A DNA stretch of 57,430 nt from Thiomicrorhabdus sp. (lineage in GTDB: Bacteria; Pseudomonadota; Gammaproteobacteria; Thiomicrospirales; Thiomicrospiraceae). Below, piece after piece: positions 38,132 through 47,694 of the stretch. A program made the translations under genes and the position numbers. Within the stretch, counting starts at the first letter, position 1, and every line of letters starts with the position of its first letter. The DNA is taken from assembly GCA_015487495.1 (NCBI GenBank), contig WFPP01000046.1, positions 1 through 57,430 on the forward strand. Direction: 5' to 3'. Below the pieces are notes generated by a model that was not told the origin of the DNA, ran no database searches, and saw only the letters and a list, made by a program, of their open reading frames with translations.

Positions 38132-39169
38132 ATGGCCAAACGCAAACTCACTCACCAACAAAAGCGCAGAGTCCGTTCACAACGTCAAGACAGAAGTAGC
38201 ACCGACGCCGGTGCATCCAAAAATAAAAAGAGCGAACATACCTTACTTGGCAAAGAACAAACAGGACTCATCATTACCAGTTTTGGCAAGCGTGTCTTAG
38301 TAGAGTCTGAAACAGGAGAACACTACCAGTGTGCCATTCGGCAACATCTCGGAAAACTGGTTGCAGGAGACCGCGTCATCTGGCAAACCGATATTGAAGC
38401 CAACACAGGCGTTGTGAACAGCGTACTTCCCAGAACGCATGAACTTAGCCGTCCAGGCTTTCGTGGGCAAACTCGCATGGTTGCAGCCAATATTGATTTT
38501 ATTGGCATTGTAATGCCTGTTTTACCAGGCATTCACCCAGATATGATTGACCGCTATCTGGTTGCAGCCAATCAACTCGATATTCCTGCCATCATTATCA
38601 TCAATAAAGTAGACCTGCTTTCCAATGAAGAAGATTGGGAGGCCATTGCTGCCCTGCTTGAACCCTATGATACGCTGAACATTGAAATACTGCCCGCCTC
38701 CACTCTCTCCCAAACGGGGCTGGATGAATTACGTACTTTTATGAATGGAAAAAACAGTGTCTTTGTCGGTCCTTCTGGCGCTGGGAAATCCTCTTTAATC
38801 AATGCACTTATCCCAGACTTACACATCCGTGTTGGAGCTCTGTCAGAAGCGACTGGATTAGGAAAACACACCACCACCAACAGTATTTTATACCACTTAC
38901 CCCCTCTTGATAACACACAACCACATGGAGGCAACCTGATTGACTCCCCAGGCATTCGGCAATTTAGTCCAGCCCCCTGCTCACTCAGTGAGCTTGAAGG
39001 CAACTACCCCGATTTTGCCCCCTACCTGGGGGGCTGTAAATACAATAATTGCACTCACAGCACTGAACCTAACTGCGCCATTAAAAAAGCCGTTGAAGAA
39101 GGCAATATCGCTTTAAGTCGCTACCAAAGCTTTCAACGCTTATTAACGGAATTCAAAGAAGACACCTAG
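38132..39169 (+). CDS. rsgA: Small ribosomal subunit biogenesis GTPase RsgA
   Basis: Circularly permuted GTPase: NKVDLL, GPSGAGKSSLINALIP, DSPGIRQF; Zn knuckle CKYNNCTHSTEPNCAIKKAV. Confidence 0.96.
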   Translation: MAKRKLTHQQKRRVRSQRQDRSSTDAGASKNKKSEHTLLGKEQTGLIITSFGKRVLVESETGEHYQCAIRQHLGKLVAGDRVIWQTDIEANTGVVNSVLPRTHELSRPGFRGQTRMVAANIDFIGIVMPVLPGIHPDMIDRYLVAANQLDIPAIIIINKVDLLSNEEDWEAIAALLEPYDTLNIEILPASTLSQTGLDELRTFMNGKNSVFVGPSGAGKSSLINALIPDLHIRVGALSEATGLGKHTTTNSILYHLPPLDNTQPHGGNLIDSPGIRQFSPAPCSLSELEGNYPDFAPYLGGCKYNNCTHSTEPNCAIKKAVEEGNIALSRYQSFQRLLTEFKEDT

Positions 39170-39333
39170 GAGAGTCTGTCGGATTTAGGTGATCGTCACG
39201 AGAGAAAGCTATTTTGAGACCATTTTTTCGATCATTTAAGGCGAATAATATTGAGTATATTTAACGAAATTGATCAGAAAAATGGGCCGAAATGGCTTTT
39301 TCGCAGTAGATTCATCCTAAGACCGACAGGCTC
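39170..39333. mobile_element. MITE-like element copy A, flanked by CTAG direct repeats (39166-39169 and 39334-39337)
   Basis: Ends GTCTGTCGGATTTAGG ... CCTAAGACCGACAGGCTC; near-identical to copy B at 39794-39953. Confidence 0.88.
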
Positions 39334-39427
39334 CTAGGAGTCTATTGAAAAAAAAGTTGCCCTCTTTTTAAACCTCGTCTAAGATGAAATCAGCAAGCAA
39401 TCCAATACCTTTACAAAGGAGTTTCTC

Positions 39428-39736
39428 ATGAAACAAACACTTACGACTCTTATGTCAATCACTTTTTTAACTCTCAGCACCAACGTAGCAGCAGGGGATG
39501 CCACTGCTGGCCAAACCAAATTCAAGTCAACCTGTGTTCCTTGCCACGGTAGCAACGCCGAAGGAATGGTTGGTCCACGGCTTGCAGGACAACCTGCCAG
39601 TGACATTATTTTTAAACTAAATGAATACCGCGCAGGCAAACAACGTGGCCCCATGACTTACATGATGGCGCCAATGGCTCAAGGTTTAACCGAAACTGAA
39701 ATTAAAAATCTGGCGGCGTACGTTTCTGAACTATAA
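39428..39736 (+). CDS. Small periplasmic class I c-type cytochrome
   Basis: Signal peptide MKQTLTTLMSITFLTLSTNVAA and one CVPCH haem site. Confidence 0.92.
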   Translation: MKQTLTTLMSITFLTLSTNVAAGDATAGQTKFKSTCVPCHGSNAEGMVGPRLAGQPASDIIFKLNEYRAGKQRGPMTYMMAPMAQGLTETEIKNLAAYVSEL

Positions 39737-39793
39737 TACACAAATAACCTCTTACCCCTAATCCGAAAATAAGGCCGTAAAACACCATCCTAG

Positions 39794-39953
39794 GAGCTTG
39801 TCGGACTTAGGTGATCGTCACGAGAGAAAGTCATTTTGAGACCATTTTTTCGATCATTTGAGGCGAATATTGAGTATAATTTAACGAAATTGATCGGAAA
39901 AATGGGCCGAAATGGCTTTTTTGCAGTAGATTCATCCTAAGACCGACAGGCTT
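39794..39953. mobile_element. MITE-like element copy B, flanked by CTAG direct repeats (39790-39793 and 39954-39957)
   Basis: GAGCTTGTCGGACTTAGG ... CCTAAGACCGACAGGCTT; same orientation as copy A. Confidence 0.88.
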
Positions 39954-39987
39954 CTAGGCGGGCTTTACAGGCAATGACAAGCCATTG

Positions 39988-41022
39988 TCAAAAATGCCGA
40001 TAGCCACCTCCCTTTTCAAACATTCCCTCTTCTTGAAGCACACCATGTTTTAAACACCGAATGCCCTTCTGTTTAACGATATGGCCAACCACACTTAAAC
40101 GCACGCCTTTTGCAGCAACTCGTTCCGTTAGTTTAGAAAGATGTTGTTCTGGCAACGTCAAACACAGTTGATAATCATCTCCTCCTGACAAGGGAAGTGA
40201 CCAATCTTGTGTTGCCTTAATATAATGCGCCACACCGGATGAAAGAGGCAGCTGACTCAACTCAATATCGGCTCCTAATACAAAATCCCCCCCCCCCTGT
40301 TCGGCACCCTGTTTTAACCGTGCTAACGAATGGTGTAACATGTGGCCTAAATCGGCCAATAGTCCATCCGAAATATCAATGGCACTGTTCACCAAACCTC
40401 GCATATCGGCACTCATTGCAATTTGTGGCATAGGGCGATTTAATGCATTAAGCGCACGACACTGCTCTTCATCAGACAGACAACTTATTGCAAACGAATC
40501 CTGCCAATCATTTAAAGCCAGCTTTAACCCCAGTGCCCCCTCTCCCAGAGTATTGGTCACACAAATTACATCGCCAATGTTTGCGCCCGAGCGCAATATG
40601 GCCTGCTGATTTGGTACCCAGCCCTGTGCGGTAATCGTAACGGTTAATGGCCCTTTAGAGGTATCTCCCCCAATCAACGGAATGGCAAACTGTGCGCTCA
40701 AGTCTCGCAATCCTTCTGAAAAAGCACGTAGCCAATCCTCAGAATATTCAGGCAAGGTGAGCGCTAAAGAGTAACTGGCGGGCGTTGCCCCCATTGCGGC
40801 CAAATCACTTAAATTTACCGCCAACGATTTCCATGCAATATCATAGGGCTCAGTATTTTCAGGAAAATGCACCCCCGAAACCAAGGTATCCGTTACTACA
40901 ACCAGTTGATGATTTTCAGGCACATTCAATATTGCACCATCATCACCAATCCCCATCTCTACTGCTTCAACCTCTTGTGATAAAGGTGCAAAATACATCT
41001 CAATCAAATCAAACTCTAATGC
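39988..41022 (-). CDS. thiL: Thiamine-monophosphate kinase
   Basis: EFDLIEMYFAPL...GIGDDGAIL; AWKSLAVNLSDLAAMGATP; DISDGLLADLGHM; MALEFDL at 41022 is the likely start. Confidence 0.94.
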   Translation of the reverse strand, partial: ALEFDLIEMYFAPLSQEVEAVEMGIGDDGAILNVPENHQLVVVTDTLVSGVHFPENTEPYDIAWKSLAVNLSDLAAMGATPASYSLALTLPEYSEDWLRAFSEGLRDLSAQFAIPLIGGDTSKGPLTVTITAQGWVPNQQAILRSGANIGDVICVTNTLGEGALGLKLALNDWQDSFAISCLSDEEQCRALNALNRPMPQIAMSADMRGLVNSAIDISDGLLADLGHMLHHSLARLKQGAEQGGGDFVLGADIELSQLPLSSGVAHYIKATQDWSLPLSGGDDYQLCLTLPEQHLSKLTERVAAKGVRLSVVGHIVKQKGIRCLKHGVLQEEGMFEKGGGYRHF

Positions 41023-41127
41023 CATACTTTCTTCCACTTGTCCAAATAAAAAAAGCCCCGTAAACCATGTTACGAAGCTCTTATTCATGCCCTATTATGT
41101 TATTCAAAAACAACAACAAAGGGGGGG

Positions 41128-47443: not shown

Positions 47444-47694
47444 AATTCTCCCCCCCCTTATTCACACATGCTCTAAAGACACAAAAACCACCCTAGGGCA
47501 CCATCTGAAAATAAAAAATTCAACGGTAAAACACTCCTTTTTAAGGCAGAAGTTTAGTTCATTCCTGTTTAAAATAGCCACGCTATTCATTTTAATAAAC
47601 TAAAAATCTACCTTAAAAATGGGGTTCTCTCGTTACGATTTCTATTCTCAAACAGACTCCCCGATAGGTGGTTTTTTTTATGCTCACCTGTTTT

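Follow-up and report, generated by a model that had tools for sequence, protein, structure and literature searches.

Two near-identical, transposase-less elements lie on either side of a one-haem cytochrome c gene in a 57,430-nucleotide stretch of Thiomicrorhabdus DNA (the window), raising the question of whether the pair forms a composite transposon able to move a respiratory gene, as an earlier note on this DNA had proposed, or represents two separate insertions around a resident gene. The locus begins with rsgA, encoding the ribosome small-subunit GTPase (38132–39169, + strand; PF03193, TIGR00157 above cut-off), whose stop codon is the TAG within the left CTAG of the first copy (39166–39337 including its CTAGs, + strand; 146.1 bits to covariance model R1). 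The element proper of this copy spans 164 bp (39170–39333), with CTAG at 39166–39169 and 39334–39337. Between it and the gene for a periplasmic one-haem cytochrome c of 102 aa (39428–39736, + strand; PF00034) sits a promoter-like block, TTGCCC-17-TAAGAT (39357–39385, + strand), which a strict sigma-70 scan did not call and which is read as promoter-like from the alignment with relatives. The second copy (39790–39957 including its CTAGs, + strand; 157.5 bits to R1) falls between the cytochrome c and thiL genes, which converge on each other, its element proper spanning 160 bp (39794–39953) with CTAG at 39790–39793 and 39954–39957. The thiamine-phosphate kinase gene thiL (39988–41088, − strand; TIGR01379 above cut-off) may truly start inside its longest ORF, as most relatives align from about residue 20.

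The two copies are 93.4% identical, share one orientation and the inverted ends GAGNCTGTCGG..., and contain the inner hairpin arms that the earlier note had described; copy 2 has a predicted fold of −79.4 kcal/mol against −39.0 for shuffled sequences (z −11). CTAG occurs 35 times in the window against approximately 207 expected from base composition, making it about sixfold rarer, so the presence of four CTAGs at the four element ends is not a matter of chance. The earlier reading of the copies as miniature inverted-repeat transposable elements (MITEs) with CTAG target duplication is supported, and the element's target is a tetranucleotide strongly under-represented in the window. A third, degenerate copy (47493–47663, − strand; 47.6 bits to R1), absent from the first account, is close to the GTCCGAGAA-end subtype and retains CTAG at one end only. 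This subtype is present intact in two congeners (G012 and G029).

Cytochrome c orthologues with 69–72% identity adjoin rsgA in five congeners (G017, G023, G029, G001 and G012), compared to at most 60% identity between the window cytochrome c and the paralogues neighbouring these orthologues. In G017, rsgA, cytochrome c and thiL follow in order on one contig, and in G023 rsgA is followed by four cytochromes c and then thiL; thiL was not found in the drafts G029, G001 and G012, where rsgA adjoins cytochrome c. A covariance model search detected no element in the rsgA–cytochrome c interval of any of the five, revealing an insertion polymorphism between relatives, and once copy 1 is removed, the intergenic region of the window can be aligned with those of the relatives through a conserved TTGCNC-17-TANNAT block. 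Element-free orthologous intervals in five congeners indicate that the two copies are independent insertions. Judged from gene order and sequence comparison, the cytochrome c gene is ancestral at its rsgA-adjacent place and predates both elements, and the simplest history would have an old gene to which the two elements were added later, one on each side.

A gene bracketed by two similar, co-oriented copies that each carry CTAG does resemble a composite transposon that moved cytochrome c as one unit of approximately 790 bp, and precedents have been reported, namely integrons bounded by MITEs in Acinetobacter and the mobilisation of a resistance gene by a MITE-like composite (PMC10969869; PMC3189936). 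We nevertheless consider such a transposon very improbable, given that five congeners have cytochrome c in the corresponding position and lack the elements there, that the promoter-like region is conserved, and that the two copies do not group exclusively with each other in the copy tree, though some right-end changes are common to both. The intervening gene is not absent from element-free relatives, and this synteny rejects the composite transposon and excludes the claim of respiratory-gene mobility; retention of the gene at this locus in relatives without elements was the very observation that the earlier note had set as its refutation. Like other copies in the genome, the two show the behaviour of single insertions, and neither disrupts the genes or the promoter-like region of cytochrome c. 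The locus itself is thus ordinary, consisting of two MITE insertions, although excluding a respiratory-gene transposon is also useful. Several tandem one-haem cytochrome c genes stand beside rsgA in relatives (L080, which is G023:C51, L079, L083 and L084); in the window one is left beside rsgA, with two paralogues on contig C40 of the same genome.

The element is typically 159–161 bp long (160–164 bp for the two window copies), with no transposase gene inside, and its terminal inverted repeats form an 18-bp terminal helix in which 97.1% of cells are paired across 37 elements. A BLAST search of its own genome, which the earlier note had suggested (a draft of 2.04 Mb in 132 contigs, 93.8% complete), returned 31 pieces at approximately 22 places, several of them truncated or internally deleted. 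An exact search for CTAGGAGYCTGTCGGRYTT with one genome per species recovered at least 119 stretches, the matches listed belonging to beta-, gamma- and zetaproteobacteria, to deltaproteobacteria or Desulfo- named records, and to a few others. Among these listed matches, 28 of 50 inverted-end pairs had an end-to-end spacing of 159–161 bp, in unrelated genomes and mostly with CTAG at both edges. A covariance model built from 37 copies matched 35 of 392 sampled good-quality Pseudomonadota genomes, whilst full-length, high-scoring copies occurred in metagenome-assembled genomes (MAGs) named Desulfurivibrio and Candidatus Desulfobia (Thermodesulfobacteriota), where MAG contamination is possible. 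CTAG was present on both sides of 43 of 88 copies from other genomes, and the left and right tetranucleotides were equal in 47 of them. Presence across the genus is patchy.

More than 100 matches were counted in some genomes (Extensimonas perlucida G462, at least 146; G465, at least 145; at most 150 candidates were scored, and weak opposite-strand matches may be included). Pseudomaricurvus alcaniphilus carries several high-scoring matches with the same score, and in G460 a number of high-scoring copies share a score of 167.6 bits (scores alone compared), which would fit recent activity in the latter. No match was found in phages, and plasmids yielded a single one, a full-length copy with 73% identity (L374 3001–3167; NZ_CP034782.1, Pseudomonas sp. 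MPC6). The plasmid concerned is conjugative and 328 kb in size, and may be one way in which the element spreads. In the open-access literature, searches combining IS1182 with MITE and CTAG, searches with the end sequence and searches for cross-phylum MITEs returned no description of the element; an end-sequence match in a Geobacter paper was merely a primer for omcE. Neither the window nor four other copy-bearing loci gave an Rfam match at gathering score (sub-threshold matches only), which speaks against a known RNA family as its identity. The element is apparently an undescribed, broadly distributed MITE family.

As for how it moves, the earlier note had called for a parental insertion sequence (IS) with matching ends, and such candidates were located outside the genome under study. 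IS1182-like elements of 1495–1595 bp, bearing the element's ends and CTAG at both edges, were identified in L170 (1595 bp; transposase 291 bits against the NCBIfam IS1182 cut-off of 270, NF033551), L160 (1495 bp; a shorter ORF with 236 bits, below that cut-off) and L167 (1550 bp; interior masked). In three further genomes (G450, G058 and G107), an IS1182-like gene or fragment resides alongside the MITE with ends resembling the local copies; in G450 both share the odd start CTAGCAG..GTCGGACTTAGG, and in G107 both share a variant GTCCGAGAA-type end. The likeness comprises matching ends of 15–22 bp and CTAG at the outer edges (L170, L160 and G450). The MITE differs in lacking a transposase gene and in its core, which shows no likeness to the IS interior past the terminal 17–22 bp or so, among the few IS inspected. 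In its own genome, a draft, no IS1182 transposase was detected by PF13751 and homology searches, nor were PF01609 DDE transposase genes found as partners, and most MITE-bearing genomes checked were without an intact partner IS. IS1182-like genes in G029 and other congeners were discounted as partners, having no matching CTAG-flanked end pair.

From the shared ends we infer that an IS1182 transposase moves the element in trans. Under this mechanism, IS1182-family transposases would recognise the shared GAGNCTGTCSG end, act in trans on the non-autonomous MITE and insert it into the rare palindrome CTAG, duplicating it; one insertion would have struck the CTAG holding the rsgA stop, and a second the gap between convergent cytochrome c and thiL. 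A palindromic GGCC target has been reported for the IS1182 element ISPsy36 (PMC8027508), in keeping with a family whose targets are 4-bp palindromes. Taken as a whole, independent IS1182-moved MITE insertions at CTAG beside an older cytochrome c, with a core conserved as a folded hairpin, make up an explanation that we hold to be probable with some confidence.

MITEs are usually regarded as decayed leftovers of which only the ends are needed. Between the terminal repeats of this element, however, lies a core of approximately 120 nt forming a long hairpin that comprises a number of helical segments and conserved internal loops. In the 37-copy alignment, 94.1% of cells were paired compared to 72.5% in shuffled and 31–51% in slid controls, with double changes in 43 of 55 pairs. 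A further 54 held-out copies, which stayed below 90% identity among themselves and with the training copies, were 83.8% paired against 35–49% when slid; although found with the model, and hence not fully independent of it, these copies were aligned to it by sequence. Parsimony on a tree of 91 copies counted 195 pair-to-pair double changes against 3–18 in slid controls. Such covariation indicates that, in Thermodesulfobacteriota as in several Pseudomonadota classes, compensatory changes maintain the core, which is not decayed filler, and conservation of a fold to this degree is unexpected for MITE DNA.

A G-U pair on one strand is an A-C mismatch on the other, so bias between the two reveals which strand folds. 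Because a structure taken from the top strand by itself inflates the ratio, the counts were restricted to pairs predicted from both strands and then made by parsimony on a tree, which on short sequences gives a rough estimate. In the core, changes from Watson-Crick pairs to G-U numbered 134 and those to A-C 48 (parsimony events; 24 columns versus 2), whereas the terminal repeats gave 59 and 44. Bias in the core with almost none in the terminal repeats gives the ends the appearance of binding sites in duplex DNA and the core that of a single strand that folds, and points to selection on one of the core's strands in its folded form, as RNA or single-stranded DNA. Folding also favours the top strand in 37 of 37 copies and in 52 of 54, related copies not being independent; this strand may well function in single-stranded, folded form, RNA being the likeliest.

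Could the core instead be kept only as a double-stranded palindrome, through arm-to-arm gene conversion or cruciform-related selection, with no single-strand function? Palindromes are common among MITEs, the opposite strand of each element also gives a lower-scoring match to the model, and orientation to genes is random. Such maintenance predicts equal strands, at odds with the core G-U to A-C imbalance, with the near-uniform advantage of the top strand in folding (subject to the relatedness of copies) and with internal loops that are conserved and not palindromic, and we judge it unlikely. A role for the hosts, in which the hairpin would protect or end mRNAs at gene 3′ ends and be retained by them for that purpose, appears more doubtful still. 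Copies do lie nearer to gene 3′ ends (medians 25 and 9 bp) than to 5′ ends (67 bp), and ERIC and Correia copies have effects on the decay and processing of mRNA (PMC10969869). Such proximity is nonetheless to be expected if insertion into a stop-codon CTAG does no harm. Of 137 gene 3′ ends that face an element, approximately 41 terminate on the TAG within its CTAG, as counted from the gene neighbours of 143 copies with natural stops and insertion truncations pooled. The sense strand is not preferred, the 113 copies scored for orientation against neighbouring genes being randomly distributed (33/29/27/24), and no T-run terminator was found in the element, nor a promoter inside it by a simple scan; presence across the genus is, moreover, patchy. 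Random orientation means that the strand effect is not explained by host-gene transcription and speaks against a cis role in mRNA, leaving a cis-regulatory RNA unsupported.

A more far-reaching reading, possible rather than probable, is that the core is a functional RNA or strand-specific single-stranded DNA serving the MITE's own spread or tolerance, for example as a ligand bound by the IS1182 transposase or a host factor. If true, a transposase-less element would constitute a conserved structured-RNA family spanning two phyla. A single size, one set of internal loops and strongly covarying stems across classes and two phyla, together with a strand bias confined mainly to changes in the core, suggest that selection can act on the interior of a MITE.

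Comparison with known systems places the element apart from each. MITEPsy1 of Pseudomonas syringae pv. phaseolicola, for which transposition has been demonstrated, is likewise short and transposase-less with inverted ends and a 4-bp CTAG (or YTAA) duplication, but differs in being 100 bp long with ends GGAAGGTCTGAAAAAGCC, in its tie to ISPsy2 (IS5 family) and in its narrow reported host range (PMC3189936). QMITE1 and QMITE2 of Coxiella burnetii are also MITEs with stable predicted transcripts and reported small RNAs, QMITE2 residing mainly in 3′ untranslated regions; unlike the present element, QMITE2 has direct repeats of 7–9 bp, and both were described from one species (PMC10969869). The same 2024 review of MITEs covers stable transcripts and sRNAs from QMITEs and mentions neither IS1182 nor CTAG (PMC10969869). 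Similar in general form are the ERIC sequences, intergenic palindromic MITEs with many copies per genome and folding transcripts in more than one family. Enterobacterial repetitive intergenic consensus elements are approximately 127 bp long, target TA and occur in Enterobacteriaceae and Vibrionaceae, whereas the present element has 160 bp, a CTAG target, a range of several classes plus a second phylum, and strand-biased covariation.

With many copies and partner IS elements, the family offers a means of testing whether non-autonomous elements carry a working RNA, and its cultured carriers include Pseudomaricurvus alcaniphilus and Extensimonas perlucida. CTAG-flanked elements of 53–56 bp, with little beyond the two inverted ends, were also observed in several genomes (L114 6736–6788, L168 5449–5504 and L219 437–489) and are possibly minimal mobile units or deletion products.
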